Shown: one piece after another, positions 14,052-63,811 of the stretch
How the letters are laid out: each line of letters begins with the position of its first letter
Position numbering within the stretch: the stretch's first letter is position 1
Source: Sistotremastrum niveocremeum HHB9708
Taxonomy: Eukaryota; Basidiomycota; Agaricomycetes; Sistotremastrales; Sistotremastraceae
NCBI GenBank assembly: GCA_001630475.1
Contig: KV419412.1
Span: 62,001-126,000, forward strand
Length of the DNA: 64,000 bases
Direction: 5' to 3'
Translations under genes and position numbers: made by a program
Notes under the pieces: model-generated
The model's input: the letters and a program-made list of their open reading frames with translations, nothing else
Databases searched by the model: none
Told to the model about the DNA's origin: nothing

Positions 14052-16035
14052 ATGGACAATAGGTATGAACACATGATAAAGCTGCGCGCCGTTCAGTAAT
14101 TGGATAACAACGCACCCAGTATGGTATACTGCGAAGTATGCTTTGAACCGATTCGAGCAAGTGGACCTGCCACAGGCCTCGGACGTTTGGAAATGTGGAA
14201 TACCCACAGAACGACCTGTCCAGGTCCAAGGTGCGAGTATGTTCCTTCGCTCCTATAGGCCCCATGAACCTGACTCCCAATATTATCATACAGATACGAT
14301 GGACCGTCACGGCCCTCTGATGCGGCTGGCTCGGTTTCGCGAGGATTCATGAATCCAGGAACGTGAGTGGCCTGTATCAACTTCGACCAAGTAACGCATT
14401 TGACGACGGAGTATTCCTTGTATCAGAGAGTTACGGTTTAGACCCGAGCACCATGACACAAGGAGCGATCCTATACAACCCATGGCCGTAGGCGAAAGAC
14501 GAGCTATCCTTCATCTGCAACAACAAAGTTCGTCAGGGAGAAGACGCGGCACTGATAATAATGGAAATGCACAACATGTGGGAGACATCGATCAGATAGA
14601 GTGAGCAACGCCCATTTCCGGCGCTCATTTTCGGTATTGATGCCACGGTCTGATACGCGGATACGACTCGTCAGTGAATGGGCCCCAAGAAACAACACCT
14701 GGACCGCACGTCATCCTTCCCAATTCCCGGACTCAATACTACTTCCTGAGTCAGTCTATCCCATCATCTTCTTGCTCTCGTCGCTCAAAGCTGATTACAC
14801 CTTGGTAACTTCTTATCGTCCGAAATCGGCAGACAAGCGCACGATAATCGAGACGCTAGGAAGATCCCACACCGTGTACTACCTCGCTGGATGCGAGATA
14901 TTGATCTGGACAGCGATTGCCAGCAGCTCTTCGACAACGGATGTATTTGCAAATGGTGCTCCAGTTTGATCTCTTTCGAAGTCGAGGGAGCTCCCACTGC
15001 TCCTTGGCAAGCGCACAAGTTGAGTTGTGCAGCGAGAAGGTGTGTCTCCATTTTTGCCCAAATCGAATCGGCTGATGGTGACATACAGAGCGGCTTTATG
15101 TTCGTCCTCTTCGCCGATGTCGTCTTTGGCATCAGGATCCGAAACACATCCAGCCCATTTAAGAAATAACCCGAGCACTCAGATCCCAGGTCATGATGCA
15201 GTTGCAATCAACGAGCCATCTCCGGTCTCCGACGCCGAACTCTCTAGAGTAAGCGCCTATGGCGTTTGGCCTTTAACAACGTCCGCAGCCAGGACGAGCT
15301 ATGAACCCGATTCCTTTGAACGATTTCCAACGTCTGGAGGTCCTCATCCATATCTTCAAGGGTCAAATGCAGGTCTATCTTGGGACGAACATCAAGTTAC
15401 TATTCCGGATCGTACGTCGCATCGGTTCAAGTTCGTTACCATTCTCTCGTCCAGTCCTTCAGAAAAATACTTATCACGGCATTATTAATGATATCAATAG
15501 AGTAGACACCGGTAATTCTCATTCTGGGAGATCTGTCTCTCGAGCTCATGAAAACTCTCCACCATTTGAATCGGTCTTTGACTCTTTAGCTCCCGAGTCA
15601 GTCACAAAAGCGGAAAAGAATTCAGAAACGACCAGGCCAGGTGAGATTTTACCTCTCACTGCCAATTCATTCCTGTATTCATACATATTGATTGCTAGAT
15701 ACTCCGTCCCATTGATTGTCTTTCGAAAAGGTCGTCCCAAGATTGCAAGAAAGGCAGAAAGCTGGATGTATGAACTGGAATCAGACCCTCAATGCCAATA
15801 TTGGACCAAAAAGAACTTCGTTTGCTCTTACTGCTGGAAAAGCTTCGCCTTCGGCGATGGGAACGATGCTTCGAAGATCGAGCTTTATATGGAGCACAAG
15901 TCTTCGTGTAGGACGCCGCTTCATGGGTATGTTTGAACCCTCGTCCATCGTATTGTGCTTTATCCCATCTCATCGGTCGATTATAGGTCATCCGCAAATA
16001 TCTCCAAAGAAGATCATAACCAGGTGATCCAGTAG
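14052..16035 (+). CDS. three-copy Cys/His-module protein (family member 1)
   Basis: My model has ten exons: 14052-14062, 14120-14230, 14294-14362, 14427-14600, 14675-14749, 14833-15039, 15089-15430, 15501-15596, 15699-15926 and 15987-16035, giving 453 residues. All nine introns are phase 2; two use a GTCAGT donor. The product carries three copies of a small Cys/His module: YCEVCFEPI...WNTHRTTC at residues 7-37, CICKWCSSLI...WQAHKLSC mid-protein (exon 6) and FVCSYCWKSF...YMEHKSSC near the end (exon 9). The last two are preceded by the family signature WMxxLExDxQC. The Cys and His spacing (C-x2-C-x20-H-x3-C) suggests one bound zinc per module. Linkers are Ser/Pro-rich. After 16020 a different frame continues for 35 codons with PVESLEQF, resembling PVEHEQRL in the homolog at 61.1-63.8 kb, so the true tail may be frame-shifted. 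No named family is recognised. Confidence 0.7.
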
Positions 16036-16239
16036 AATCGCTAGAGCAATTCCGACACCTTTTTGAGCAAGGAGAGTGGCAGAAAATCGATACACGCATC
16101 GAAGTAAATTTGAAAGGGTTCTAGAGAATACAGATTAAGAGTACATACATCTAAGGCGTTACAAATCGCAGGGCTACACTCGCAAGAGAAATAAAATAAT
16201 CACAAAGAGGATATCACCGATACCGCCCAGCACACCGAG

Positions 16240-18337
16240 TCAACCACGTCGAACCCGAAGATTTTTCTGTCTCGTCGAAATCCCAATCACCGCATTCCAC
16301 ACACCATCTTCCTCCTCACTCGAGCTCCCACTTCCATCAGGCGAAATACGACCGTTCCACACCCGCGTACCCTTCTCCAAGCCTTCATTAATCGCAGCGA
16401 AGACTTGCCACCGGATATCCCATTCGGTCTCCCAAGGTCTCTCAGCACTCCGATGAAGCCCGTCCAATGCGATAACACAGCTCTCATCATCCTCCGGCGT
16501 CCGACACTCTTCTTCTTCGTCGGAGGAACACCATGACGCAGAGTCGTTATCGAGGAATCGGAGAGCATCGAGACGCTGCTCGAGGTCGAAGAAGAATAAC
16601 GAACGGTGGATGTTTGCGAGAGGGGTTGAGCGGAAGTGCCAGTCGAGTTCGATGGAGGGGTGAACGGTCTTGCGAGGCTTCGATGAAAGCATGGATTTTG
16701 AAGACGGAAGGGGAGATAGCGAAGGAAAGGTGAGCTCGCAATTCGGAGTCAAAGGCGGCGAAGGGGAGCGGGAAGGAGGGGTAGGATGAAGATCGCGAAG
16801 GTTACCCATGCGAGGGAATATATCCTTGCAATACTTCTTTTCTTTCTTCACATCTTCCTTCCCGGCCGAAGATCGCCCGTTAGCGGCAGCTGCTGCGAAA
16901 CGAGGATCGCGCTTCTTCCACAAAGCTTCCTCCCACTTCTCACTCCAGAACCCGCGCTTTGCGTCCAGAGCACTTTTGGTCAGCCCGTGATACTCCCAAA
17001 TACGTTCACATCGTCTAGCGGCCATCTCCCAAGGATACCTGACATCTCCACCTTTTTGTTCCGCATCTTCGTCGTCTTCATCTTCGTCGGACTCGTCATC
17101 ATCCATGGAAGACGCAGATGCTTCCGATACGACCTTTCCGGACATGATCGCTCGGAATCGGCGAACAGTGTTATGGTATAGCTCTGCTCGCGGCGATAGC
17201 AGGGAGGGTCTTTTGGGAACGTAGATGGCGAAAGGATTCTTGACGAGCAGCGGAAGAGGGCATGCTACACCTGGAGGACGACAAGGAGATGGTGAAGATG
17301 CTGAGGAAGGATGTTGAGCGGAACTTGAGGGGGATGTTGGTGGGGATGTATGCGCCGTCGAAGATGATGAAACAGAGGACGATACCGACGCGACACTGGA
17401 TGAGGAGGAAGACGTTGATACTGGAGAAGGTACTGGAGGAGCAGGTCGTGTTAACGCAGTCCGGATTGGAGGCTTCGGCGAGGTCGAAGTAGCGTTCGAA
17501 GATCCTTTAGCCGAATGTGCACTGTTCTCTTTCCCAATAGAGGCGCTGCTAACGGATGCACTGATGGGTTCGGCGGTGCGAGGGCGTCCGATGCCATGAC
17601 GTTCGTATATGCCTCGTAATAAAGCAGCGACTTCGGATTCGGATTTGTTATCCCAGTCGTCGTCGTCAGCATCTTCAACGGAGTCCTGACAGATAACGGT
17701 CAATCTCTGTGAGGAGATAGATAAAGCAGCAACTTACATTGACCTCTGGATCAGACTTTGTTCGAGCCATAGGAGCAGAATTTACGTCCTTCTCCGTAAG
17801 CGCGCGTCTCGATGAAGGCGAGGCTGAACCACGAGGGACCGTCTCGGACCTAGCACGCCCGCCGAATACTGGCTTTTGGATGACAGGGGGAGTAGGACGT
17901 TGACGCTGAGGAGTGGAATAGATAATGACCTCCTCCGTATTGACCTGCTTCGGCCCGCGCAGAGAATCGGAGCCGATCGTCGTCGTCGACGAGCTAGGTG
18001 AGGATGGTGTAGTCGGTATCGTTCTTCTCCTGACGAGATCCTTCATATTCTTCGACAAATCTGTTCTGCTAGTCGCAGCTGCATATGATCGAGGCGTATG
18101 AGGACGCTGCGGCTCTCGCGATTGAGACGAATGACGACGATTGGTCGTACGACCTAGACTATAGCCATCCGCTGCAATGCGCTCAGGCGTACGAGATGTT
18201 TTGGTGGGACTGATAGGAGTTGGACTGGGTACGGAGACCCTAGATGCCAATGGAGGCGTCGAATGAGCCCTGGATCGCGTGCTGGAGTAGTAGGTGGGAG
18301 ATGTAGTAGGCAACGAGGGGAAGTGGATTGTAGACAT
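16240..18337 (-). CDS. disordered hypothetical protein with a conserved basic core
   Basis: Two exons (18337-17738 and 17685-16240) separated by a 52-nt phase-0 intron (GTAAGT, TTGAC branch, GTCAG acceptor) encode 681 residues. MSTIHFPSLP is the first ATG; the frame upstream has only TTG. The first 380 residues are Ser/Pro/Thr-rich. A compact block follows: NPFAIYVPKRPSLLSPRAEL, an acidic stretch, then YPWEMAARRCERIWEYHGLT and FWSEKWEEALWKKRDPRF. Near the C-terminus, ELDWHFRSTPLANIHRSLFF and WDIRWQVFAAINEGLEKG look folded. I do not recognise the family. The clustered Trp/Arg residues suggest a basidiomycete-restricted protein-interaction core inside a disordered regulator, but this is inference. 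It lies convergent to one Cys/His-module gene and divergent from another. Confidence 0.82.
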
Positions 18338-19361
18338 TTTGATGTCGTTGAAGAGATACAGTAATAGTCGATTGATAGTGTACTTGAGATACAAGACGAG
18401 ACGTCGAAGAGAGTGGGAGGGTCGTGGCTGTAGGATGTCTTAATTGAGTGCAATGAATGAAGGAACGAATGAGATGAAGTGTAATAGTCGAGAGTATTGT
18501 AATGGTCGTGGACCGTGTTTGAAGGGAAAGTGTTCAAGTCTAGCAGTTCAACTGGCCAAGTCTGAGCGGGAAAGAGGACAGGTTGAGCCGTTCAACGGTC
18601 TGCATTTTGAACTGCCATCGTGCTCGACGCGAGACCTTGCGCGAGACACGATCGCCGGATATTTCGTTCCGACTCCGACGCGTCTCGCGGGTGTTCGGCC
18701 TCGGGTTTCGGTTTCGGTGTCGGCTGTCCCGTTTAGGTCTCAGATCGACCGGCTAATGCCGGGTCCCGACCGTTTCAACTTTCAGCTTCCTATCCATTTG
18801 TGTGTGCATTATGAGCAAAATGATGTTCGCGAACGCGATAGTGAAATTATAGAGGCTAGATTTCAGATTATCGATGCCACCGTGTGACAGGCTTTGGTGT
18901 TCTAAACTTCGAGTGCAATCTCTTGGCTATTTTCGCCCGCACTTTTGAGGACAAAGCGACCTTCTCGTCCCAGCGTCAGATCTAATTGAGGATGCGGGAA
19001 ATAAATAGAGACATTATTCGAGACCGAGATACCCGAGTTCGAGACCGTTCTCGCGACTCGCCGAACTTTTAGCGCCGAACCGGCAACGCCGAGACTGCTC
19101 CCGCGCGGTCGGTGCGCGCAACTCCAAGATAAAATATTCACAACGAACTTGATTCTTCTCAAACAGGCGCTAATAGATCTGCCAAACACTTATCCATTGC
19201 ATGTTATGCCACGTAATGTTCTTGTTATACACCAAAAAATCCACCACTGAGTTATGCCCGTGAACAGGGTTCGAATCGAAGGTCCCTAGCCGACGGAGCT
19301 TGGATTTCCGACGCTCTTCGCTTGACCACCACTCTTTTCCTTAACCCACTCACGCACCGAC
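18338..19361. other. divergent promoter region
   Basis: About 1 kb lies between the start of the minus gene at 18337 and the plus gene at 19362. It contains GC-rich inverted fragments and a TTCGAAT box near 19270, but no gene with coherent splice signals. A 147-codon plus frame (18444-18887) looks like chance. Confidence 0.4.
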
Positions 19362-21739
19362 ATGGCATTTCAAAACCCCCTCGACAGCGATATCGCCAAC
19401 GATCCTCAATGTGCAACATGGAATCCAACAAGCGTGCAGTGCGTCTGCGGCAAATGGATCCCACTGCGCCCATCACCGAGTAGTAGGTTGGAGCCATGGG
19501 AGGTCCATAAAACCCTTTGCCCACTCCAGACGTTGTGAGTCGATTCAAGCGATCAAAGCACCCAATGAACTCTGACACACGCCAGTAGCACGTCAATGGA
19601 TTCAAGACGACCGCCAACTCCTCTATGGCAAAATCTTTGTGCTCCTCATCTTGATCGACAGGCCTTACGGTAAGTCTGATGATCTTCTAGGCATCCATGC
19701 TGAGCGTCATCTTATTCCCGATATCAGGCCTTCGTATGATGATCCACACCAAAACCAGATATCAGGTGACTCCCGAGTGAACACCGCATCAATCAACAGC
19801 AGTAACCTGCCTCTGGCGTCGCATGTCTCGACAAGACAGATCTCAAGCAACGCAACAGAACCATTCCGGACGCAATATCAGATTGGGTAATTCATCCAAT
19901 GTTCATTCTCAGAATCCGCACCGTTGAGTAATATGACATCTGCCAGATCTCCAGGACCGTCGACCACGAGAAGCCGAAAGGGAAGAAAGCATCTGTGGTC
20001 TTCCGGACCGTCACTGGATCCCATCGACTCTGGCGAACCATCGCGGGTTCAAACAAGATCGATAGGATATGAGTGAGTGTCCATCTTGTTGTATACGCCC
20101 TAACTTAGCAAAACTGCCCTTTACTAGTGATTCACTACAAGATATCAGCATCAGAACGGAACCGATGGACGTTGATGTTGGCCTGTCGCCCATAATGATC
20201 CATCCATCGTCAGCGTCTAATACTGCTCATAATCCCATGGCTAACATTTGGACCGGTATCGCGTGTACATTCAGATTCAGAGTCAAGTGGAAAGACCCGG
20301 AGTCGGATGGTACAGGCCACGGACATGGAGGGAGTGAGGAAGTGTTGGCACCGAACTCAGCGGGTGGGTCTATCAGGTGAGTCACTATCCTCTCCCACGC
20401 TTGCATTGTCTTACGGCCCCTTCAGCGGAAATACTTCCGGAACCCCAATCGTGGTTGATGAAGACTCTCGGACATCCGCTTGGATATCCGACTCCGACAA
20501 CAACCCTCTGGACGTCCAAACAAGTGTCCAAAGGCCCAAAATCACTGAGCTATGCGCTCAGCGTGGATTTTCTCCAGATAAATCGGACCTCCCAACATCA
20601 ACACCTCGCCCACCTATTTATTTTCGACCGCAATATCCTTCATTCTTCCCCGACTCGCACCAAGAACCCCTCAATAAATTGACTTCCAGAATCCCAGTTC
20701 AATGGTTTCAACAGGGAGTGAGGGAGACAATGGACCGTCAGGAAGCTGGCTATCCAGATCTGGTCGGGGCGTGCGTCCATGCAATTCCTCCCTGCGTTAA
20801 CCATTTATTTATAGTCTTCCAGATATCTGAACGCTCCCGTATCTTACGCCGACGATTCTGCGAACACCATTGCTCGTGATAATCAACCCGAAATTGTCGC
20901 GGCCTCGGCCTATGAAGATCCTGCAATCGCTTCCCAGTGAGTCTTCGTGTGTTTACGTGTGCGATAATTCAACTCTTTTGTAGCTATAGGAGAATGTTAT
21001 ATCCGAAATCTCCCCGAGTATTCAGAAAGGGAGGATGCTCACTGTGGACGAATCGAAATGTAGCGCACTGGATGTTGAGTTTGGAAGAAGACTGGCAATG
21101 CCGCAATTGGTCCGAGTCGGAAGTCATATGTGCATTCTGTGAAGAAAAAATCCCTGTGGGCGCCGGATGTCGACCGAAACTCGCTTTCTGGGATGCTCAT
21201 AAACTGACGTGTTCAATGGAGTGGTTCGTGTCGATTCACCGCGGATATCTGAAAGAGTTCCTCATGCTTTATAACCAGGCCCCATGATTTAGCAACGCGG
21301 CCTTATGACTCATTATCCGAGAATGATCGTAAACTCTTGGCTCTGCTCAAGAGAAGTAGGAGTAGCATGAAGAAAAATGGCGGTGGGTAAGTACTTGGTT
21401 TATCCGAGGCTCCTTCGGTCTTGCAAGACATGAACTTTCATTCTTCTGTAATACTGACTCGTTCATTTGCTACGTAGGAATATTTCATTCGGGGTCGCAA
21501 AGCCCTATCTCGAAAAAATCGACCTTGCGGGCTCAACACGTCCTGGTCATCTTTTAGTGTGGATGGTCAGTCTCGAACTCGATACTCAATGTACTCGCTG
21601 GACTGTCGATGAAGCGACTTGCGGATATTGTCACAAATCCGTTACGATTGCTAGAAAAAGTCGGAAAGGTTATGAAGATCGCCTTCTTCTCTGGAGAGAT
21701 CATAAACTTAATTGCGTTCCTCCGCACTCCTCAGCCTGA
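19362..21739 (+). CDS. three-copy Cys/His-module protein (family member 2)
   Basis: Ten exons: 19362-19534, 19586-19669, 19728-19886, 19947-20072, 20128-20376, 20426-20770, 20823-20936, 20984-21223, 21279-21386 and 21478-21739, giving 619 residues. Every one of the nine introns is phase 2, so all internal exons are multiples of three. Module 1 (residues 14-53) is DPQCATW...VQCVCGKWI...WEVHKTLC, with one residue fewer between its paired Cys. Modules 2 and 3, in exons 8 and 10, read EVICAFCEEKI...WDAHKLTC and ATCGYCHKSV...WRDHKLNC, each preceded by W-M-x2-LE. Between modules 1 and 2 lies about 360 residues of Ser/Pro/Asp-rich linker. This is the clearest member of the family; the layout matches the gene at 61.1-63.8 kb almost exon for exon. 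Likely zinc-binding and possibly nucleic-acid or protein binding, but function is not known. Confidence 0.85.
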
Positions 21740-22233: not shown

Positions 22234-23248
22234 ATGATCTGCATACGAATGCCAGATTCCGACCTGACCATCCGCTCGATTGATGGTCAAGATTTTGAAG
22301 TGCACCGAAGCATCATTTGTTTCGCTTCCGCAGTCATCGAAGGAATGCTGCCTCGCAATCTTCGATCAACTACACTCTTCGGAAACCCCATCATCCAACT
22401 ACCAGAACGCGGTCACGTCATAAATACCCTAATCCAATTCATCTATCCGACAATCCCACCTAAATTCACCTCTCTCTTCAACGCCGCAGAGGTACTGGAG
22501 GCCGTTGACTGTTATGAGATGTACGGCGTTCGTGCCGCCATTCAGGACTCGTTACGTCTCAGTCAATTCCCTACCACCGAACCTATCGCACTATACATCC
22601 TCGCTCGCAATTACCGTCTCGACCTCGTCATGAGCAGAGTCATGAAAGACTTCGTATCCGCAGATTTCCAAAGGCTGCCCGACAACGTCCTGTCATCAGA
22701 TATCGGTCGCTTGAGAAGCGACGATTATCTTCGTGCACTCTCGTACGCGAGAGACAGGGCTCGAAAATGTCTCAAGATCCTGAGGGACTCTAAATTGCAT
22801 TATAAACACATCTGCAGGTGTCAAACCCGCGCCATCGAGTTCGATAAATCCACCGGCATACTTCACCCCAAGTTCCAGCCGACAATTCAAGACTACCCAT
22901 GCTACGCATTCCTTCGATTCAAGGCGCTGGCTGCAGAGCAACTCCAGCGCGAAGCTATCGACTTCGACATTTTCAAGCCATCATTGCGGCTTTCAGCTTG
23001 CGAAGAGGAGCAGTATAGATGCCCGGACGGACTGCTGAACTTGATGAGAAATTTTTCTCAATATTTCACCGATCTACAGAGGGCTGTGGAAGCTGTTGGG
23101 TGGGAGTATCCTGAAGGATACAAAAGGTACGCGAAACTATCGCTCACTTCCAAGAAGCTTGTCAATGACACATTCGCCTGATAGTCAGCTTTATATCGAT
23201 TTGATAAAATCGCCTATGGATGACGATGGCGAAGATTTCGGCCTATAA
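22234..23248 (+). CDS. BTB/POZ domain protein, divergent copy
   Basis: Exons 22234-23126 and 23185-23248 encode 318 residues; the intron (GTACGC to CTGATAG, 58 nt) is phase 2 and sits after WEYPEGY, the same relative place as in the other BTB genes here. The BTB core is recognisable (SDLTIRSIDGQDFEVHRSII, LIQFIYPTIPPKFTSLFNA, AVDCYEMYGVR), but residues 95 onward differ from the tandem pair. In the C-terminal half CRCQTRAIEF replaces the C-x2-C-x4-C-x-W motif of other copies. The N-terminus is short: the usual acidic leader is missing, so either the second ATG (22249) is used or an upstream exon is not seen. The last exon gives an acidic tail, SPMDDDGEDFGL. Confidence 0.82.
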
Positions 23249-23495: not shown

Positions 23496-25484
23496 CTATA
23501 CACGCCACTCCATCAAAAACTTGTCTATAAGAATAAGTCAGCAACGATTCCCCATCAACCGCAGGAGGAAATTTGCGCGCACCTCGAGCCTGTCGAGCCA
23601 CGCTTTCCATAGCCGAATAAATCTGCCAAAAAGATCTCCATTTCACCCATTCATCAGGTCTACACGACGCAACAATAGCCTGTTGCAGATCCCGCGCAGA
23701 TATCGAATTTCCATACGCTTTGATACATCGTTCGATTTCATCGTGTGATAGTCGATCTCGCTTGTGACCCAGTATCTGGAGAACAATCCACAGGTCTATA
23801 AGATGACTCAGCGCATGTTCAGAGTCGATAGAGCAAGGTACGTACCACATAATGCTTGTATTCGTACTGCGAGTCCGCGGAGATGCTGTGTCGGCAGATG
23901 CCGGTAGACCTCATTCGGCCGATGATCGACATGTTTGGCCATAGCATCCGAAATCTTGGGATCTATCAGAAAGAAAGAACGCTAGAGATACTTGATGAAA
24001 CGTACGACGATCTCATAGTTCTCCGGAGCCCAGAATGTCATGTATGTTGTTGGATCGTTGATAGGACTTCGGGTGTTATTGCCCGGGCCTAGGCTTGAGG
24101 ATATGCTTCCGATTGTGTTTACTGATCTCAGCTTTGGTCTTTGATAAAGGTCTAGGAAGCGGGATATCAGACATGATGCCAACTTCGATATAACGCGGTC
24201 AACATACGGTACGAAAGTCTACACGTCTTTGTCAGCGTTGAATTGATATGAGGTGAGATGATGAATGACGTACAAAGCGAAGAAGCTAGGATCCGCTTCA
24301 TCCGACCCTCTCGCTCTCGCAAAGACCATCAAGATATCCGTATCAGAATCCTTGATACACCTCATAGTAGCCTGCGTCAAATCCCTCAACAGTTCTTTCG
24401 AGCTGATAGCACAGTCTTCGGCTACAAAGATATTTATTCACACGAACGAAGGATGATGGCAAGAGCTTACCATGTTCCAGGCGGACAATGGCATTGGGCG
24501 GATATTTCATCCGCACTAAAGGTTCTTTGCAGTGCGATTGGAATATCTTGTGTGCGCGTGTTCGGGCCCATGCTTCTTCGTCCTTTAGACTTTGATCTGG
24601 ATCTGAAACATCATCGAATGACTTCCGATCGTCCTCGATATCTTGGAGACAACTCTCGATGAGAGTGTCGTATTTAGTCACGATGACAATGACGGGAACT
24701 ACAGTGCGAGTGAACAAAGTGTTCCATAGAGAGTAAGTCGAAAAGACGAACCTTTGCCATGATCTGTCGAAAAGAACTGTCGTTCTGATGCTTGAATAGG
24801 GCGCTCGTTAGCTTGAATACAGTACCTGACATCACGAGCTAAAGTTAATGAGAGAAGACAGAAGATGACGTAAGTGGCTCACCAAATTGCGTGTATCCTC
24901 TGCGTCGCCTCCATGTTTCCTCTTTCGTGGATGAAATTCATAAACGTGGTGTACTCCTCATCGCTACCAGCCTCGGCACCGCGAGAATCATGCGCGACGA
25001 ATGAAGGATTCTTGTCGGAAACGAGTTCGTGGTCAATTCTGTGAAGGCCGCGCTATATGTCGCTCGATAAGAATCTGATGCTTGGAATTAAAACTCAAAG
25101 ACTCAGTACTCACGTGTTCTCCCGGAGAATCAGCCTAAAGATGAAAATCGTGGTCAGATAGTGCTCGCAATGGGATGAGATGAAGACGCACAATGTTGGC
25201 ACCACAAAATCTACTCAAAATCGTCGTCTTCCCACACCCTGCTCGCCCTACGATAAGAACTCTGAATCGTCCTGTCGAGTTGTGCCTATCATGCCCACGG
25301 ATCAGAGTAACACAAAGGGAAAGACGATCAGGGGTTTGCTCAGTCTGCAAAGCCACGTGAAGACTCACTTTGGCGAAGAAAGCCACTTGGTCACCGTAGC
25401 GACGGGATGGACTAGTGCAAAGAAGTCAAATCATCAGCTCAGAGAACCGCATGGACGTTGGATCCCACTGTACATTTCATGCAT
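23496..25484 (-). CDS. P-loop GTPase, copy 1 (basidiomycete GRAxxGKT family)
   Basis: Thirteen exons: 25484-25469, 25411-25369, 25285-25192, 25134-25114, 25052-24883, 24825-24752, 24698-24471, 24421-24274, 24218-24208, 24151-24006, 23954-23846, 23795-23583 and 23524-23496; 433 residues. The G domain has a Walker A loop GRAGCGKT (residues 33-40), a switch/G3-like AHDSRGAEAG and a G4 VTKYD, so GTP binding is likely. A C-terminal helical half follows (YMTFWAPENYE, DLWIVLQILG, FWQIYSAMESVARQ). Each exon was checked against the paralog at 40265: internal exons 3-6, 9, 11, 12 and 13 have the same length in both. Exon 1 is tiny and the least certain. This family is abundant in Agaricomycetes and its cellular role is, to my knowledge, unproven; resemblance to defence-type or cytoskeletal GTPases is only inference. 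Confidence 0.85.
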
Positions 25485-26536: not shown

Positions 26537-28227
26537 ATGGAACAAGCTTCATCTCATCCTTCGACTCTTACCAATCATGATCCAATCGCCTTAGATATTC
26601 CTACACGCTCCGGCAGTCCCACTCCGTCAGAAATCGAAGAGATGAACGAGCCATTCATAAACCTCAACTTTCGTCGCTACATAACTCTAGACTTTATCTC
26701 ACAACCCAAGAACATCGGTATGCTTCCCAGTGCAGCGATTTCGCACTACTAAAAATCTGACATAAATATACTAGTTATTATTGTGATCATTGCTCTAACA
26801 GTTGCAGGTGGAATCTCAATCGGGGTCAAACACACTCAAGCAGAGGCTTTATTTCGTCCCGCAGCTGTATGGATGAAAGACGCTCCCGGTGGATGGCTCA
26901 TACCCGTCGCTATTCTCTTCATAATCTCATTCCCTCCTTTATTCGGCCATGAAGTCGTCGCTATCCTCTGCGGAGATGTATGGGGATTGTGGATCGGATT
27001 CGCTCTGGTCACTTTGGGCAGTACATTAGGAGAGATTGGGAATTTTTAGTACGTCCCTCTCAGTGATTCCCACCATCTTTCAGGCGTGATAAATTGCAAA
27101 ATATTGACTTTGGTTTAGCGCCTTCAAATACATGTGTTCCGCCCGAGGGGATAAACTGGAGCGCACATCGTGGCTTTATGCTTGTTTAGCTCGGACAGTC
27201 CGAGATGGCGGATTCTTCGTGGCCCTTATAGCACGTTTATCGGCGATACCCGGTCATTGTGAGTTTCAGCGTCAGCGCTTCATGCCGCGTCTATATTCTT
27301 AACTTGTGGACAGTTGTGACTGCGGTGTTTTCGACTGCCGGAATGAATTTCGTCATTTTCGTGATTGCGGCTGTTTTATCAAGTCCAAAACAATTCGTTG
27401 CGATATACATAGGAGGTATGTGCTCGAAGTTGCTTTATATTCTGGGCCCGTAAATTGATTTTGTGATAGTGGTCCTTGAGCGATCTTCGGCAACAGGCGA
27501 TCCGCCCTCCAAAGAGTCTAACATCGTCTCCGACGTCGCCGTCGTCATTACCGTCCTAACATCCATCGGATCCGGATTGTATATGTGGAGGAAAATGCAT
27601 GCAGCTAGAATTATGGTGGTCAGAGAACGAAGAGCTCGAAGAGCTATGAAGATGAAAGAGCTCGATGCTCTGCGTCACGACGGCCTTGACGCATGGGACG
27701 GAAAACGAGCGAGGACGGTTCATTTTCCTTTACACCGTGGAAATGGGGGTGATGGATTGGAAGTTAGGCATTCGAGCACGAGCACTCCTGTGCTTTCCCG
27801 CAAGCCCGACCTCGAAACCGAAGCCGACGCCGACCTCGAGATGGGGGAGGTGTCAACTCAGCCCCCGCCGTATGCATCTACGAGTGGACATGCTTTTGTA
27901 GATGGGCAACTCCCAGACACTACAGATCTATCATCCGAGTCCACTTCTTCTGCTATTCCTCCGGCCGTTCCTCCATCTTCATATCAACCAAATCGTGCGG
28001 TAGCAAACCTTGATCGAACGTACGAGATGCTGTCAAGAGACAACACTGTCATGACTGCTACCCCAAAGACGAGTAACAGTTCTCCATTCGCTTCGTTTTA
28101 TAATACTACCTTGGGAGAGAGCAGGCGGAGCTCTAATTCCAGGACATCGAGAAACTCTCTCGAGACCACGAGTGTTGGATATTTCTTTTTCTGGCTTGCT
28201 AGCATTATTGTTCCGCCGTTCTTGTAG
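26537..28227 (+). CDS. TVP38/TMEM64 (VTT-domain) membrane protein, copy 1
   Basis: Five exons (26537-26717, 26775-27048, 27119-27258, 27314-27415 and 27470-28227) give 484 residues. Residues about 60-270 carry the SNARE-associated/VTT domain of the TVP38/TMEM64-DedA superfamily: a first membrane helix (IIVIIALTVAGGISIGV), WLIPVAILFIISFPPLFGHE with the conserved re-entrant FPP/G motif, YACLARTVRDGGFFVALIAR and GMNFVIFVIAAVLSSPKQF. After a further helix comes a positively charged then Ser/Thr-rich cytosolic tail, ending in a hydrophobic GYFFFWLASIIVPPFL. Yeast Tvp38 is a Golgi/vesicle membrane protein; VTT relatives have lipid-scramblase activity. The tail is much shorter than in the next gene, with which it shares all intron positions and phases, so the two are a tandem duplication. 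Confidence 0.92.
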
Positions 28228-28815: not shown

Positions 28816-31329
28816 ATGGCTCAGGCTCAGGCTTACGACCCTCCACAAGGACTGCCGCCTCCATCGTTACAGACATCATATCCTCAAGCAGGAGCTTCGT
28901 CTTCATCTTTTCAGTTTACGAGTCCTTATCCTCAACCTCAATATGATTACCCTACCGCTCACAAACGGACGCGAAGCGAGCAGTCCCTGACTGCAGGGAG
29001 ACCACCAAGCCCTACACCTTCCGAATTGGAGGAGATCAATCAACCGTTCTTTAACCTCAGTCCCCGTAAATTCATCACTAAGGAGTGGCTCAGCAAGCCA
29101 AAGAATATTGGTGCGTTTCCTGTCTTCAACACGTGAAACTTGGCTGATGTCGGACCTCGTTCTCCAGCTATTCTTGTGGCTGTCGTCGTATTGACGGTCT
29201 TGACTATCCTAATCGCCGTGGAACATAAACAAATTGAGGACTGGCTACGTCCTGCAGCCAATTGGATGCGAAGCCTGAAGTTCGGGTGGCTCATTCCAGT
29301 AGCCATTCTGTTCGTCATATCATTCCCCCCGTTATTCGGCCATGAAATCGTCGCTGTATTGTGCGGAAACGTCTGGGGATTGTGGGAGGGTTTTGGTATC
29401 GTGGCTCTGGGCACACTTATTGGCGAAGTTGGCAACTTTTAGTACGTCATTGTTACCCTCTTCCTCCCCCCAGCCTCCATGCATCCACGAGCGTCTCAGA
29501 ATGCTTATTCATCTTCTTTAGCGCCTTCAGATACATGTGCAGAGCGCGTGCGGAAAAACTTGAGCGGGATGTCTGGTGGTATGCATGTCTCGCTAGAACG
29601 GTCCGTGAGGGCGGTTTCATCATTGCTATTGTGGCACGTTTATCCGCAATTCCCGGCCATTGTGAGTCGTCCTCTTTGTCGTGTGATCCCCAAAGCTCTT
29701 ATGTATCCCTCAACTTCCAGTCACGACTGCTGTATTCGCAACCGCTGGAATGAACATATTCGTGTTCTTAGTAGCAGCAATTTTATCCAGTCCGAAACAG
29801 TTTGCAACGGTCTATGTCGGAGGTATGTTATCACATGTCTCGCCGATCTTTCTTGATGCTGATCTTGATCTTCAGTTATTCTTGAAGAATCGGCATCCTC
29901 TACCCAGCCCGACACCAAGTCCCGAATCATCTCTGACACCGTCCTTGGCATTTCTATCTTCATCACAATCGCGGCCGGATGGTATATCAATAAAAAGATG
30001 AAGGCCGCGCGCATTTTCGTCGTCCGCGAACGTCGCCAGCGCGAAGCGCTAAAGATGGGCGGTATCCCTGGTCATCGGCCTGGAGGAGCCAGTGAATACG
30101 CGTCTACCGCACATCTTCCTTTAACCGCGAATAACAACGATTCAACAAGTACGCTTGGAGGTACTGATGATCGACGTGGCCCTAGTCCTGGAACGGGTGT
30201 ATTCAATCCACGTGCAAGTGACGTTGAACTCGTCGCCCCGAATGCTCGACCTGGTGCCAGTTCGACTTCTCTAGCTCCGGATCGTTACGCGTATGAACCG
30301 AGGGTGGGAGCACAGCAATGGGATGATAAAGGAAAGGCAGTGGGTGACGGATATGGATATCAGTATGGCTATGGTGGAGGCGACAGAGAGAGGAGAGGAG
30401 GAAATGGCTATGATGATCCCTACGCACCTTCATCATTCTCAAGTGGACCGTCGTCACAGACACCGCGCTTTCAACCACCTTCAACGACATCATCAACCGC
30501 GACTATCACAGCCCAAGATCAACCCTTCCGTCCTCCATCGGGTCCTCCACCGCCATCTCATTACCCACCGCAAGACCAGCCCGCGTATCCAATCCAAAAG
30601 CGTATTCCTCCCCCCGCAGCTCCTCAACCAATCCGACAAGCTCCCATATCACTTCTCCAATCCCAAACTTCGTCCACCCCTCCCGTTCCACTACTTCCTC
30701 CACCGAATACCGGGGCACAACTAAATTCTAGCCCGGGATTCCCGAATCCCCAAATGCCATCTTCGAATATAAGTACGAACCAAGATTCATATCCGAATCC
30801 ATTTGGGGAAACGAGCCCCGAAGCGCACCAGACGTCCTTCAATATGAATCCCACGCCGATCGCGACTGGAACTCGAAGATACGACGAACAAGGCGGGGAC
30901 ATCGAACCGGAAAGTCCGTTCGCGGATGTAAATGCTATTCGAGTCCAACCTCCATCTATACATTCGACTCAGGAACCTAGTATCCCAGGATCGGCACCTG
31001 GATCTCAAGGAGGGAATCTCTCCGCTATTCCTCCATCTTCATCGCATTCTTCACCCAGCTCAGGAGCATCATCTTCTCTCCCTTCTTCGCTTCCTTCCGC
31101 TGTATCTTCCTTGTCTCCAACTGCTTCCGGACAAGGACAGACAAGTCAGCGTGTTGCTCAACAACAACAACAATTCTTGGGCGTCAAGAGATATCAATTG
31201 ACTGATCCCGGAAGCGGAAGTGCTAGTGCGGAGACGAGTCCAAGCGGTGGCAACTCGTCGTTCTATAGCGCCGATTCCAGGAACAACTCGCCTGCGAAAG
31301 AGCGAGCCGATGATGAGGGATTGAGGTGA
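28816..31329 (+). CDS. TVP38/TMEM64 (VTT-domain) membrane protein, copy 2, long tail
   Basis: Five exons (28816-29110, 29168-29441, 29522-29661, 29721-29822 and 29876-31329) encode 754 residues. Exons 2, 3 and 4 are exactly 274, 140 and 102 nt, as in the upstream copy. The N-terminus is Pro/Gln-rich (YPQPQYDYPTAHKR). The VTT core matches copy 1: WLIPVAILFVISFPPLFGHE, LARTVREGGFIIAIVARLSA, GMNIFVFLVAAILSSPKQFA. After the last membrane helix (GISIFITIAAGWYI) comes a basic KKMKAARIFVVRERR linker and some 430 residues of Pro/Ser/Gln-rich tail with a QQQQQ run. It probably acts in Golgi/endosomal membrane or lipid traffic. The tail has expanded or been replaced relative to copy 1, while the membrane core is conserved. 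Confidence 0.93.
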
Positions 31330-40264: not shown

Positions 40265-42191
40265 ATGGGTCGTCAGTCGATCAGTGATTAGGGGCATCTC
40301 AACTGCTGATGCGAACGTCATTCAGTCAAAGGGTTTATCAAAACTGTGTTCGGGTCTGGGTACGCACAACTGTCATTCGTCTGCGAGCCCTCGTTAATGT
40401 TTGTGATAGCCCGAATCATCATGGTCGCTTTCGCGCCCTGGTTATCGGAAGAGCTGGATGTGGGAAAACCTCTATACTAGATCGCTTCTGTGGAGAGAAT
40501 ATCGTACGTGATGCTTTCATGAATGTATTTCAAATCCTGCTAATCATTGGAGACAGTCTGACATGCCTGGCGAATCGGTAAGCCACCGAGATATATTGAA
40601 AAATCGGTCAATCTTGCTAAATGTATCACGTTACCCTTAGAGAGGTCTTCACAAGATCGGAAAGGAGCTCATGTCCAAGAATAACCCTTCATTCGTCGCC
40701 CACGATTCCCGCGGAACAGAAGCTGGAAGTGATGAAGAGTTTGAAACTGTCATGAGCTTTATTGAGGAACGGTCTCGTATGGGGCCATTACATCGGATAC
40801 ACGTCATATGGTGCGAGATACCAGTAGTGCCAACCCCATGATAGTTCAACCCTTTCTAGGTATTGCATCCCGATTGGAGATAGAGCCATCCAAGAGGCCG
40901 AGAAGAAGTTCTTCTCCGGGAACCGTTTCAACAGTACGTTCACCACAACACAGACACTGCACCGATTAATGCTCATGCACTCCCGTTCTCCAGTTCCCGT
41001 CATAGCAATTGTCACCAAATACGATCTCCTGATCGAAGAATGTCAACAAATCATCGAAGAGGACTGGGAGAACGACCCCGCATTCGACCCCAGCCAAAAT
41101 GATCAACTTGAGGATTTATCCGCCCAGGCTCGCACAGCGGCTCGACGAGTATTTCATACTCATTACCAAGATAAATTAATGCGGATGCCATTTCCTCCTG
41201 AAAGCGTCGTTCGGCTTGCGAATGGTAATATCTCCGTATTTTCATCGATCACCAAGTGAGCTAAAGGAGCGCAGTTCATATCAATAAAAATTCAAAGGAC
41301 CTACTACATGATTTAAACCTCGCAACGTTAAGAGCAATCAAGGACACCGATACCGATGTCTTGATGGTATTTGCGCGGGCTCAGAAAATCGATGAATCGT
41401 TGCCCTCCTTTTTCGCACTGTGAGTCATCCTATACCCGACCTTTATATTTCTTAATCATCCTCCGTTTGCTCGCAGACTATCATATCGTGCGTATCATTC
41501 GACCTCTTCTTACCAATGTCATCTGACCACTTAATGAAGATATATACGAGCGACCTAAGATCAAGAAACGAACTCTGACCGCAAGCGCCAATGTCGGGAC
41601 CTTTACGAAAGCTACTCCAGTCTACAACGATCCAACAACGTTCATGACGTTCTGGGCTCCTGAGAACTACGAGATTGCAGTATAAAAATCCTTCCGAACA
41701 TATACATACGACTCATCTATTCCTATGCTTAGATCTGTGATGCGCTCGCTGAGTTTGTGGACTCACGTTCCCGAGATTGCTATAAAATTCTCTCCTCCCA
41801 AGGATTACAAGAACGAGCATTCCGAGCCCAAGTAGTCTGCGGTACGCGTTCCTCTCCTCCCTTTCCCCCATCATCTGAAACTGAACCTAAAGACCTCTGG
41901 ATCGTCCTTCAATCCCTCGGCAAGAAGCGTGAAAAGCTCGAAGTTCCCCTAATCCGAAAAGCGATTTGCGCATATGGGAAATCAGAAGCTGCGAAAGAAG
42001 TTCAAAGAGCCATCATCGACTCGTGTAATCCGCTACAGTGGGCGGAGTGGAAGTCATTTTGGCAGATTTATGAGGCTGTTCAACAGATTGCGCGGCATGG
42101 AAGAGGTGAGATTCTTATTTGATATTTGATTCCGGTGGGCTGAATTAAACTTGCGTTCACAGAACAGTTTGCTATAGAATCCCAAGGTTGA
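40265..42191 (+). CDS. P-loop GTPase, copy 2 (basidiomycete GRAxxGKT family)
   Basis: Thirteen exons: 40265-40271, 40326-40359, 40410-40503, 40557-40577, 40641-40810, 40860-40933, 40994-41224, 41275-41419, 41477-41487, 41540-41679, 41733-41841, 41893-42105 and 42163-42191; 425 residues. The Walker A loop GRAGCGKT is at residues 27-34, AHDSRGTEAG follows, and VTKYD is the G4 element. The C-terminal half includes FMTFWAPENYE, DLWIVLQSLGKKREKL and FWQIYEAVQQIARHGRG. Intron positions and phases are the same as in the minus-strand copy at 23.5-25.5 kb, including an 11-nt exon. The first exon has only seven bases (ATGGGTC) and a GTCAGT donor; it restores phase but is the weakest call. The catalytic and membrane roles are unknown. 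Confidence 0.86.
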
Positions 42192-53875: not shown

Positions 53876-54817
53876 CTATCTACAAAGATCAGTCTACTCT
53901 GTGCTGAGAATCGATAAATCAAGACGACCATACGGGTACTCATATTCCCATGGAAGGGCGTCAATCAATGTTTGAAGATTAGTGATCAATTTATCGTTGC
54001 GGAGGATGTCGTTGCGGAAATTTGGACATGTAGGAGAATTAGGATTATTTGAAATGTAGGAAATGACCGAGTTGAGCGCACGACTGAGCGTTCGACTAAT
54101 CGGTCGTTCACGCAATTGCTCGCTGACCAAGCGGACGAAATAGGGCCACCAGATGCATCCGTATGTCTGACAACGTTGACACCTCTGGATTCGAGAGACT
54201 TCAATGCTTCTGACAATATCGATAGCATCATTAGCCCTAGCTCTCCTGTATATCAAAAGTCGATGCAAATCACGAGCCGAGAGATACTCCATTTCTGGGA
54301 AAGAAAGGAGTGAGGGATCGCTGGCCGGATTGATCCCGTAGCATTGTCTGATGGCCGCCTTTTCCACGTCTCGAAAGTCATATCGTTTAGCGATTGCGTA
54401 TACTCGTAGGGGTTGGGAATCCATGAATTGGGATTCTTGCAATAACATCCGAACAGCCTTCAAAACCGTCGCGATGTCATACTTGAAGGCAGCATCAGTG
54501 ATACTGCTTAGATGCTCGAACCTCGAGATTGTGGGGTTTGGGCAGGGATAGATAAATCGGAGCAAGGCTTTGAGAGTCGCAGACGTCTCCGTCATTTCGA
54601 CGATTGGGAGACCCTGCTCATCCTCCGTTTCACCTGCAGAGTGAGGATAGCGATCACCGATGGATAGCATATCCTTAAATACTGCTGAACTCTTAGCCAA
54701 CGGCCACTTGTGTACGTAGAAATACACGTTGTCCGAAGATTGGAGTACAAGTTCTGCGTCATTCTCCGAGTTATTGAAGGACCTAGAAACGTGTCTGGGA
54801 GATTCAGGAGAATCCAT
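53876..54817 (-). CDS. BTB/POZ domain protein
   Basis: Exon 1 (54817-53934) and a terminal mini-exon (53879-53876) give 295 residues. The 54-nt phase-2 intron (GTATGG to TTTGTAG) removes the read-through tail, and the last exon carries one base of Pro plus a TAG stop, as in the 50.9-kb gene. Without splicing the frame ends at 53894. The BTB core has NDAELVLQSSDNVYFYVHKW, SSAVFKDMLSIGDR, LLRFIYPCPNPTISRFEHL and AAFKYDIATV. The second half includes RVYAIAKRYDFRDVEKAAI and CQRCQTYGCIWWPYF, then PTCPNF. It is the closest relative of the 50.9-kb gene. The short leader (MDSPESPRHVSRS) is the first ATG. Confidence 0.86.
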
Positions 54818-56058
54818 TTCTGGAATTTAGAGCGCTATGGCTACGGCCCGTCTTGAACCTGAAATCGAATTCAGGCTAAGTACCATTAGATAAGTGACCA
54901 ACCAGTAAAAGTGACTATTCACCTATCAAAAATCAAGCCAGAGAAGCTATAAAGTGGCTGCTGCAGATAAGATGCTTGGTGTCTCCCTGAAAGAAGGCAC
55001 GAGGCAAGCACGAGGTGGCTGTGTGAACGAAAAATCAGAGAAAGTCGAACGAAATCACAAGCGCCAATGTCCAAAAGCCGATCCTATCCGATATTCGAGA
55101 ATGGTCGCATGACGTCACAATCAGTTCCTTCCGTCTCGTTCTGCAGCAAGCCCAAACAGTCGTTGATATCTGTCAGTATTGTATAGTTGTTGGCTAGGGA
55201 GACTCACTATTGAATTTTACCAGTGGGACGACCAAGCCGATCCAGACCATTCAGAGGCCCACGGGTCGACGACCACACCTGGTCCACGCTCATGCCCTTC
55301 TAAGGCTGAAGGACCCGAGTTTCCATTCACTACTCGAGATCTGCTGAATGAAACTTGAGATAACATGGTATCTGGCATGCACAAATTTGCCACAAAGTGA
55401 TATGTCTTACGCAATATTAGGGACTTTCAAGGATATCGTATCTTGGAAAAATTCAATGATACCACGAAAATGAACTGGATTCGGTTCATATGATTGGAAC
55501 CGCCCTCGAGTATGATTTGCACGATGTTCGCATTGCAAGTTCAGGTGCATGGATTGTTGTGGTTTCTTTGTACAAGGATAGCCGAATCTAGCTCGCTAGC
55601 CGATCGTCCCGATCCGCATCTCCGGTTGCCCACGTTCTCTCACACGAAAATATTTTCGGATAAAATTAGGATGCCACCGAAATATTCGTGGCATCATCAA
55701 CATTATCACTGAGCCACTGAATGCACGTTCTCAAAGAGGTGGCACCGAAATTCAAGGATGCCGACGATGCCGAGTGGAGTGCCGGCCCATCGAGTCGCTG
55801 ACGTAAGCCGGCATATGCAGCCGACAGGCTATTGTTCGACTTTTGTTCTTGTTCATCGTCTCCGTCTCCGACTCCCTCAATCTCTTCCTTCCCGACCATC
55901 TCTTTCTTGCTCTGTCTTACTTCCTGTCTCTCCATTTTCTGCATAGACCTGCTCCACGACTCGCATTTTCTACTTAAACTCACGACAAATCTTCTCAAGT
56001 TCTTTTGTTCAAGACAGCCCCGACCAACTTGCACACTCGCTGCTCATTGTCGAACGCG
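54818..56058. other. 1.2 kb intergenic
   Basis: It lies between the divergent BTB gene and the AA14 gene. Frames here (for example the minus frame 55666-56034) are low in information and have no domain. The C/T-rich stretch at 55830-56000 is likely the AA14 promoter and leader. Confidence 0.45.
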
Positions 56059-58419: not shown

Positions 58420-58835
58420 ACCTACACTTCTTGAACAACCCTTACCTGAGAACAACTACCTGATTACGCATTTTCATTGATTTACGCCTTACTCACGACG
58501 AGCACTTGATGCGCTCTTCCTGTCTTTTTCCTTTCTTTCTCGTTCTCCCTCTATTACTGATTCACGAAATGCGATTGTATCGTTTGATAGCCTGCGGCAT
58601 CTTTGACATTCTTTGTAAATCGTTTGGACTCCTTTCCTCTTATTCCTCCCCGTATTAGTATAATTTCTTGTATCTGACGGCGACCCATGGTGTTCGCCCC
58701 ATCTGTAGTAATATGTTACGTCCCGGCCATAGCTCCTCATACTGAATAAAAAGTTCCTTGATGATTGATTCTATCCCAAATCGTACATGCACTGAGTTAT
58801 ATCCAATATCCAATATCAACCGCGGCGAGCCCAGA
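58420..58835. other. intergenic, convergent 3' flanks
   Basis: About 400 bases between the AA14 gene and isocitrate dehydrogenase. Nothing further is seen. Confidence 0.5.
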
Positions 58836-60379: not shown

Positions 60380-60701
60380 CGGCCTCCTGAGAGACGCAAC
60401 ATTTGAGGAAATAATTGATCGTCTCATCGTCGTTCACGTCAGTAATGAGGGCAGGCTCAGGACAGCAAGGTGACGGTGAGCTGGCGATTAGAAGCGAACG
60501 CCCGTCGGCACTCGGCATTCGGCGTCCCGTTCTCCGGTGCTGTCATGGCCCTTGCTCCGAGGCTGGCAGATAATGTTTTCCTTGATAACTCTGTCAAGGC
60601 ATGCAAACGACGATGATGTGAGGAGGAAGGGACAAACTATCGGGGACGTTGGGGAAATATTGGCTGCCCCAAGATTTACCTTGAAGTTCGATCTAGAAGT
60701 T
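60380..60701. other. promoter region of isocitrate dehydrogenase
   Basis: About 320 bases upstream of the dehydrogenase. A short upstream ATG reading MLRLSGGR then stop (minus strand, near 60400) could be an upstream open frame if transcribed. No other gene. Confidence 0.4.
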
Positions 60702-60986
60702 TCATTCAGGGTTGTGATAGGGATCGTCTAAGCTAAATACCCGACAAAACTGGTACAGAGAACGTACTCTTTCATACAATAAAGTGAGTTCAGCATATCC
60801 CATTCGATTGGATACATCAATCCCAAAAGGTATGTTCTCTTCACAATGATTGCACGAGACGCCTTCGTGGTTCCAATTGCGCAATGAAAGGGTGCGCGTA
60901 CAGAGAGAAGAGTCGTATAGAAAGGGTAGGCTTTGGAGGCAATTTTCAGAGGCATCTCGCTGCCTCCAACCGAAGTCCATGGTCAA
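60702..60986 (-). pseudogene. degenerate Cys/His-module fragment
   Basis: A minus frame reads LRNWNHEGVSCNHCEENIPF, clearly the first half of the family module (compare SWNREGVSCRICGEDT in the adjacent gene). However, the segment that should give W-x2-H-K-x2-C reads LTLLYERVRSLYQ instead, so the His and last Cys ligands are missing. The upstream DPQC part is also distorted (YDSSLCTRTLSL). It lies just downstream of the stop of the intact three-module gene and is best read as a decayed extra module or remains of a tandem copy. A real exon of that gene, joined by an unseen splice, is less likely because the phase-2 frame closes. Confidence 0.55.
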
Positions 60987-61109
60987 TGTGTCGATGAATC
61001 AAAATCACGGCGTTCGGACCCTCTATGTATAGTACATGTATACAAAGCAAAGAATCGGCATACCACATAGCAGGCGAGCTGCAAATCTTTAGAGCATCAA
61101 GAGAACGTA

Positions 61110-63811
61110 CTATTCAGAACATAACAACTTGTGATTCTCCCACATATCCAGCCTCAAATTGTGATGAGCATTGTCGATAGGTGTATCCTCCCCACAAATC
61201 CGACAGGAGACACCTTCGCGATTCCAACTTTGGCACTGAGGGTCCAATTCCAGCCTAAGCATCCACAGAACGCCTCCCGTAGGGTTGTTTCTCGGCGGAC
61301 CAACATTTCTTTTCCTAAAATGCTTTGAAACATGGGAATATAAGATCTTCCTGATCGTAAAGTCAGCCTCTCGAAAATTTCATACCGCTTGTAGGACCAT
61401 CCGCTCAGAACGAGCCGAGACGTTCGACGATAGAGCAAATTAAGTCACTCACCCATCTAAGTTATTGTTTTGTATGTGATTCATCATGTTTTGCAGGCGT
61501 TGTTCGTGTTCGACGGGGCCATCAGGTGAGGCATTTCTGAGCATGTTCAATATGTAATAATCTGTAAAAATTAGGGAAACATACCTTTCCTGAGTACAAT
61601 GCGTTTTATGTTGCCGCCAAAGTGCCAGACGCGTTTGAGCCTTTCCCTTGGGAGGTATATCTATCTGGGCCTCGCAGAATTGGCAGACAACGATTTTCTT
61701 ATCCCATTGTCGACACTGCGAATCGTCTTCCAATTTATTCATCCAGATCATAATGGCACTCGTTTTGATCGAGATTCCTTTGGTGAAGTAGGTATATTCC
61801 ATATCAAAGGTCCTGTCAACACAAAAGTATTGAGCTTGAGCCGCTTGACAGGATATCGAATATATACGTCTGTTTTCCCAGCGGAACCTCTTGGCCGGTT
61901 TTCGCGCTGAAGGATGGGTATGAGTAGGCAGGAACTCGTGTAGTTGAACGACTGCCAAGCCTAGAGTCATAGTCAACAAGGGAAATTTTGGTGACCCAAT
62001 ACAGAAATACTGTACCTACATGACCTCGACATACTTCACACGCTAAGCGCCCACGGAGCGCCCACGGAGATGGACGATTTTCGACACTCTTAGCTCTCTC
62101 TTGCGCGAACACATCTATCGACACACTTTATAACTCTCGGAAACATAGTATACCATCGATTGTGAATATTTGAATATATATCGGTATTTGTATGTCGTGT
62201 TTTAAAAAACGTAACGCCGTAACGGCAGTATGTCGTGGTCGTGTAAGTACAGTAGTCTTCTCACATTTCTTTCTCGATTTCCGTGTCGCCATATTCACGA
62301 TCCGAGATGTATGAAGAATTGCCATCGTACGTCCCAGACGGTACAACGTCGCTGTGGCTCTTGTTGTAGCTGGGTTGAGTTATTTGATGGGGTCGGGATG
62401 ATTTCGTCCGAATGACGGTTGTGGGCCGGCCAAAACCCGCTCGCTCTACATTTGGCGATGTTCGAGGCAAAAAGTCATACTTTTGCCGGATTCTTGCATC
62501 TGGAGAAATGATTGCACAAGTGGTTGGGGCATCGCGCCGTTCGGCATCGGAGGTCGGATACACCGAGTCTACAGCGATTGGTTCATCGGAACTATTTTCT
62601 CTGATGGGTCTCTTCAGACCATTTGCCTCACTGATGAATGATAACTCACGACGAAGATGGGGAACGTTCATGCGCCACGGCGCTCGCACATCTGTCTTCC
62701 CTTCTACCTAACTCTCGTTCGTCTCCTTCAAGTTGCATCAATGATCCATCCCAATCATCACGCAGGGCCCTCGACACGGCACCGCTTCCCTTATGCTCAG
62801 CATCCGGGGCAAAATCGATGCGTCCACGAGCTTGAAGCTTGCTGAGACTAGCCGCTTTCACATCCGCCGGCGCGAGTTGGGGAGCTTGAGAAAGATACTC
62901 CCTGCGAAATTCGACGTCAGTTCATTAGCCACTGTCATAAAAACCGTAGTCTCACGTTTGCGAAACGCAGTTGTCAAGCTCTGACTCTCTCTGACTGCGA
63001 TAATTGAGAGAGCGAATCGCAGGTTGACTATCGGCACCATCTAAGTTCAGGATGAAACTAGCAATTGATCAACACCCATGCTTTAACCGATACCTCAGGT
63101 CGTACCTCAATCCTGTGCGCGGTCCCGAAGATGACGAATTCTTCGGGGATGATCTGGGCGATGGTGTACAGGATGATCGCCTTGCGTATTCCGCTACTCC
63201 ATCCTCATAATCAAGCCTGCATGATGATCTCGCCAGTCAACACTAAATAGTCTACACGGCAATAGTTGGCTTACCTCCTTAGACTCTCACTCACTATTGG
63301 TGGATCGGCTTGAGGAAGAGATGACTCTCTTGAGGCCGAAGACAATCGTAACGTGGGTTGAGGGCGGGCGTCGGTCACATGTGCCTGATCGCTCCTAATA
63401 TCTGTTTGTGTTGTGGATCCATCTTGCAACGAACTGATATTCGGAGTGGATGGCATGTCAGTGACAACGGCCGACGGTTGAGATGAACAAAGGAGGAAGA
63501 CTTACTTCTTTGAAATCGGAGCGATGGGCGAAGCTGGCGGCGACCATGCGTGGTGAATGTAGGCGTCGTTGACACTACGGTGTCAGGAAAGAACAGGTAT
63601 GTCAGCAGTATTGAGTGAGGCTCAAAGGGAGAAAGGCGCACTTTGCTCGTCCACAGACAGTTTTATGATTGTACCATGGTACAAGTCTCTCTTCCCCACT
63701 CCCCAGCACAATGCTGGCATGGCAGATGCGACATCGCGCTTCCTTTACTGAACAAGCCCGACATTGTGGATCTGAAGCAAGTGCGATATAAGAGTCCCAT
63801 TCTTTCTCCAT
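61110..63811 (-). CDS. three-copy Cys/His-module protein (family member 3)
   Basis: Eleven exons: 63811-63642, 63574-63506, 63433-63275, 63216-63106, 63057-62956, 62901-62650, 62600-62265, 61960-61868, 61812-61585, 61536-61453 and 61314-61110, giving 602 residues. All ten introns are phase 2. Modules: residues about 13-53 (DPQCRAC...ARCRICHASI...WYNHKTVC), exon 9 (DSQCRQW...VVCQFCEAQI...WRQHKTHC) and exon 11 (DPQCQSW...VSCRICGEDT...WENHKLLC, then SE-stop). The start MEKEWDSY is chosen by analogy with the 19.4-kb gene; an upstream in-frame ATG exists at 63901. Exon 3 is 159 nt in both genes. Intron 7 (62264-61961) is unusually long at 304 nt; if it is not real, the gene splits into two, the first ending EIEKEM. 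The linker is Ser/Pro/Asp-rich. Function unknown; probably zinc-binding. Confidence 0.78.

Follow-up and report, generated by a model that had tools for sequence, protein, structure and literature searches.

A repeated Cys/His module in three putative genes

The DNA analyzed here, a window of 64,000 nucleotides from Sistotremastrum niveocremeum HHB9708 (contig KV419412.1, positions 62,001 to 126,000), holds eight full copies of a Cys/His protein module, together with a half copy (14.1 kb) and a decayed one (60.8 kb) (Table 1). Judged by their positions and reading frames, the copies appear to form three genes, of which genes 2 and 3 would be built alike, with one module close to the N-terminus and a pair at the C-terminus. 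A profile built from seven full copies and searched for the eighth recovered 8 of 8 (30.1 to 61.6 bits, E 4.2e-8 to 5.1e-18), and beyond the half and decayed copies no other match in the window exceeded 8.4 bits, the best in 20 block-shuffled control windows being 11.6 bits. The half copy comprises only the second half of the module, C-x2-C ... W-x2-H-R-x2-C.

Asp, the upstream Cys, the adjacent His and Lys (HK), and the last Cys are present in all eight full copies, while Gln, C-x2-C and the Trp of W-x2-H are each present in seven, the 15.8-kb copy having Tyr in place of this Trp. The Trp after Q-C-x2 is found in six, Ile in five and the Val before x-C in four. The original prediction had described nine copies in three genes, all following D-x-Q-C-x2-W-x4-V-x-C-x2-C-x3-I ... 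W-x2-H-K-x2-C. The repeated module is real, but the ninth copy is only half a module, the decayed tenth went unlisted, and the pattern is kept less strictly than described.

Protein searches of the genome to which the window belongs (34.7 Mb in 111 contigs) identified homologues with significant E-values and, in all, eight further modules, at C19:143-145 kb (n = 3), C19:369 kb (n = 1), C10:943 kb (n = 1) and C22:109 kb (n = 3), one of the C22 copies having no last Cys in frame. His and the adjacent Lys are kept throughout an alignment of 15 copies, from which the first copy at C19:143 kb, the fragments and the half and decayed copies were omitted. When the eight window modules were aligned by hhalign with the five modules of C19:369, C10 and C22, the score was 56.5, which was reached by 0 of 100 permutations that kept the seven pattern columns (best 31.3); the two sets are thus homologous and not merely alike in Cys/His spacing. 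The modules are one homologous family, related beyond the Cys/His pattern.

A genome search for W-x2-HK-x2-C gave 72 places against 31 for a reversed control. Seven of these lie in the window and 58 in regions that were inspected (65 of 72 covered), and among the inspected regions outside the window full modules occur only at the four locations named above, the best other match there scoring 12.5 bits, apart from one antisense match of 14.5 bits at C22. MYND fingers account for five of the others. The pattern C-x2-C-x-K-W showed no excess (38 against 36 in the control). No relative was found in viral or bacterial/archaeal contigs by single-protein scans, which reach close relatives only, and a match on a Mesorhizobium plasmid (E 0.4) was rejected, as it has one Cys and no C-x2-C. 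Module fragments at C81:14908-15009, C81:15401-15463 and C15:9841-9948 contain one in-frame stop each and may be either decayed copies or exon edges read through.

Table 1. Module copies and associated features in the window. Gene assignments are putative. E, expectation value in the leave-one-out profile search; Ka/Ks, ratio of nonsynonymous to synonymous substitution rates against the inverted paralogue; pLDDT, predicted local distance difference test (AlphaFold2).
Feature	Position	Strand	Evidence
Half module, C-x2-C to last Cys, gene 1	14118..14226	+	20-26 bits with profiles not built from the half module
Module, gene 1	14882..15040	+	E 4.2e-8
Module, gene 1	15757..15921	+	E 4.5e-13
N-terminal module, gene 2; ATG start; C-x-C replaces C-x2-C	19362..19532	+	E 4.6e-11; sequence
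Module, gene 2	21063..21224	+	E 1e-15; pLDDT 86.6
C-terminal module, gene 2; in-frame stop after	21554..21736	+	E 6.2e-16; sequence
Decayed module remnant downstream of gene 3	~60821..60881	-	17-20 bits with profiles not built from the remnant; protein search E 0.04 at C19:122822-122884
C-terminal module, gene 3; in-frame TAG 2 codons past last Cys	61113..61271	-	E 5.1e-18; core Ka/Ks 0.13
Module, gene 3	61584..61751	-	E 9.7e-18; core Ka/Ks 0.08; pLDDT 80.4
Gene 3 linker, weakly constrained, disorder-type composition	62267..62623	-	Ka/Ks 0.55; composition
Gene 3 linker, weakly constrained, disorder-type composition	63277..63432	-	Ka/Ks 0.47; composition
N-terminal module, gene 3; ATG at 63811	63641..63799	-	E 5.9e-13; core Ka/Ks 0.16
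F/L-x-K upstream stretches	15691-15762, 20985-21068, 21476-21562, 61266-61349, 61746-61817		

Constraint, predicted fold, exon borders and surroundings

An inverted paralogue of gene 3 (61-64 kb) lies some 17 kb further on, at C19:143-145 kb, and is 74-78% identical to it in three blocks. Between the two, pooled Ka/Ks is 0.12 in the module cores (139 codons) and 0.54 in the linkers (193 codons), a third linker giving 0.72 in addition to the values in Table 1, while for two modules the exon part immediately before the module has 0.37 and 0.30. Ka alone follows the same order (modules 0.118, linkers 0.225). Constraint is concentrated in the modules, which are more constrained than the linkers. 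In two gene 3 linkers and one stop-free stretch of gene 2, disorder-promoting residues make up 0.52-0.62 and order-promoting residues 0.17-0.29, compared with 0.46 and 0.38 in the modules. The original proposal is supported as to a constrained repeated Cys/His unit that lies between linkers whose composition is of the disorder type, the disorder being judged on amino-acid composition only.

AlphaFold2 models of the 61.6-kb and 21.1-kb copies (predicted template modeling scores 0.59 and 0.67; pLDDT in Table 1) both have strands at residues 13-16, 20-23 and 29-31 and a helix from residue 41, to which the 21.1-kb model adds an N-terminal helix. C23 and C26 fall where the second strand ends and in the turn that follows, His (48 or 46) belongs to the last helix, and Cys (52 or 50) comes directly after it. 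Read from the predicted secondary structure, C-x2-C and H-x3-C are likely placed where a single Cys3His zinc site could form, and conservation together with this fold makes one such zinc per module likely. The zinc per module had been put forward with the upstream Cys as a possible fifth residue. The models place the four best-kept ligand candidates where one such site could form, but the upstream Cys drops out of the set, because all three C22 copies have Val in its place (Q-V, K-V and Y-V), and it is thus not a general ligand.

Donor-like splice sites follow most of the modules. Such a site lies exactly 11 bases past the last Cys (+11) in 11 of 16 copies, and other phase-2 donor-like sites lie at +8 (n = 2), +14 (n = 1) and +17 (n = 1), so that 15 of 16 copies have a phase-2 site at +8 to +17; the 21.6-kb copy has no donor-like site and is closed by a stop codon. 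The corresponding background, counted over all Cys triplets on both strands of the window, is 35/3563 (1.0%) for a +11 site and 175/3563 (4.9%) for a phase-2 site at +8 to +17. Three copies carry an additional donor candidate in another phase, and the 14.1-kb copy has a stronger donor-like site at +17, which is in phase 2 too. Both +8 sites overlap an in-frame TAG, which may be the true gene end. Under a strict branch-site rule, 4 of 10 copies have acceptor candidates, which are in phase 2 without exception, and the other six have none. The recurrence of phase-2 donor-like sites past the last Cys, together with the phase-2 acceptor candidates, suggests that duplication of an exon whose borders are in phase 2 spread the module.

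One short stretch each (VFRK, VFRK, YLEK, HFRK or YFTK) precedes the modules at 15.8, 21.1, 21.6, 61.2 and 61.6 kb. This F/L-x-K stretch, with an aromatic, aliphatic or His residue before it, lies upstream of five of the seven modules examined, those at 14.9 and 63.7 kb being the others, and may be part of the repeated unit or exon.

Other repeats occur in the window. Tandem duplicates at 8342-9250 and 10122-11033 are 68% identical, and the open reading frame (ORF) over the first encodes a BTB/POZ protein; further BTB matches lie at 22234-23178 and 53897-54826. Two nested pairs of inverted matches, 24010-24060 with 41625-41675 (90%) and 24953-25055 with 40638-40740 (74%), look as if they were remains of an inverted duplication. 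A direct duplicate (26891-27264 and 29284-29667, 70% identical) is followed by ORFs at 27454-28224 and 29869-31326 which resemble each other in places, the latter having no Pfam match.

Comparison with known families

Nothing over cut-off was found in Pfam, with eight module ORFs and with sets of 8 and 15 modules, or in NCBIfam with eight modules, and PDB sequences gave no significant match. The best of these, WDR48 (E ~0.05), is taken as a chance match, since its alignment does not keep the C-x2-C spacing. DUF7828 (PF25165) matches weakly over the stretch from C-x2-C to H/C in 4 of 15 modules (best E 5.5e-4), but its best score of 20.0 bits falls short of the cut-off of 25.7, and the family has no match over cut-off anywhere in this genome. 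None of the titles and abstract openings among the top-ranked open-access records describes such a module. Foldseek searches against PDB folds likewise returned nothing significant among the best 50 of 209 and 145 matches (best E 0.27 for model 1 and 1.3 for model 2); the weak matches were to BED domains, BIR domains, the Sec23 zinc finger and ribosomal proteins. The BIR domain (XIAP and others) reaches TMq 0.28-0.40, not significant, and is absent from the Pfam families listed for the 15 modules. The lack of a match over cut-off in Pfam or NCBIfam agrees with the original claim, in which the module was not recognized as BED, C2H2, MYND, zf-CCHC or RING, although MYND had been dismissed too lightly.

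MYND fingers bind two zincs through seven Cys and one His. Five fingers of this genome, all of which match Pfam zf-MYND (PF01753), share the ending C-x2-C ... W-x2-H-K-x2-C with the modules, including the Trp and Lys that are not ligands, which raises the idea that the module is a MYND finger reduced to its second zinc site with its protein-binding role kept. An hhalign comparison with these fingers gave probability 81, E 1.2e-5 and a score of 27.4 (23.5 and 23.1 in further runs). With all columns permuted, 0 of 60 comparisons came near (best 13.3), and when permutation spared the pattern columns, 1 of 60 reached 27.4. Under one uniform setting, however, the real score of 23.1 was matched by 30 of 100 pattern-keeping permutations, so that the likeness between module and MYND consists in the shared pattern itself. 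The modules are also without the other MYND cysteine pairs, only C-x2-C and H-x3-C being general in the alignments, and zf-MYND is not listed among the Pfam families for any of the 15 modules. We regard such a half-MYND as improbable; the pattern that the two share may be inherited or convergent.

A DNA-binding finger of the BED or C2H2 type, in which case the genes would be transcription regulators or domesticated DNA-binding parts of transposons, has somewhat more in its favor and is nevertheless doubtful. BED domains (PF02892) have C-x2-C followed by His and the last ligand on a helix. The BED domain of ZBED2 is the first Foldseek match of model 2 (TMq 0.41) and ranks 10 for model 1 (0.39), ZBED1 ranks 22 for model 1 and the Hermes BED domain 49 for model 2, yet even ZBED2 has an E value of 1.3 for model 2. 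Pfam zf-BED touches 1 of 15 modules (E 0.019) with 15.4 bits against a cut-off of 20.6, and the last ligand of the module differs, being a Cys after H-x3. Of the 57 window ORFs listed, 10 were scanned, and none of these contains a transposase domain. Charge points both ways: the net charge is basic, +3 to +5, in the five modules of C19:369, C10 and C22, whereas it ranges from -4 to +3 in the eight window modules, which have no uniformly basic surface. The module is filed under neither MYND nor BED.

Least probable of all is that the Cys and His hold the fold through another metal or through disulphides and that the module is no zinc finger. The upstream Cys, present in every full window copy, would suit such an arrangement, but over the wider alignment it is HK that is kept and not this Cys, and a single Cys3His site agrees with the spacing and with the fold predicted.

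Proposed role of the module

The best reading is that the module is a new family of a known kind, a zinc finger, known here from one genome; similar sequences may occur in unnamed proteins of other Agaricomycetes. More specifically, we give a probability of roughly 0.55 to a compact single-zinc finger that serves as a recognition unit on a flexible chain. In the mechanism that we infer, from the zinc and the fold details through the gene models to the binding role and the type of partner, a finger of about 50 residues would most likely bind one structural zinc through two pairs, C-x2-C where the chain turns beyond the second strand and H-x3-C where the last helix ends. Probable core positions are Asp, which is invariant, the residue four places further on, which is usually aromatic, and the Leu or Trp preceding His. 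The module would have multiplied by duplication of an exon ending in phase 2, usually 11 bases past the last Cys, and the modules of genes 2 and 3 would be joined by linkers that evolve fast and have a disorder-type composition. The most likely role is that several fingers on a flexible chain bind a partner. For the window copies this partner is somewhat more likely to be a protein than DNA; nucleic-acid binding is possible, given the basic charge of the five modules at C19:369, C10 and C22.

Several observations weigh against this proposal or its simplicity. The ligand set is broken in two copies, by C-x-C at 19.4 kb and by the absent last Cys at C22, and the half copy has HR instead of HK. 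The basic charge of the five modules just named would also suit nucleic-acid binding. AlphaFold2 was run with an alignment of nine window modules only. Some donor-like sites of the modules are weak (GTTCGT, GTGCGC and GTGCGA) or are GC donors, and exon borders were set by eye from the DNA itself. The Ka/Ks values come from codon ranges set by eye, without confidence limits, and Ks is higher in the module cores (0.99) than in the linkers (0.41), for which we found no explanation and which by itself lowers the Ka/Ks of the modules.

A wider view of the single-zinc finger, which we hold as tentative, is that of a fungal superfamily outside the curated libraries searched, in which a unit made up of three strands and one helix is spread as a phase-2 exon and gives rise to proteins that carry several fingers and diverge fast. 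These might form a lineage-specific recognition repertoire with a logic like that of animal C2H2 arrays.

If the recognition finger proposed here is real, it would give a group of so far unnamed fungal proteins a defined domain, whose ligands are predicted and whose boundaries can be tested, and would add a family to the annotation libraries. It would also provide a compact case of domain gain through the duplication of an exon of fixed intron phase.

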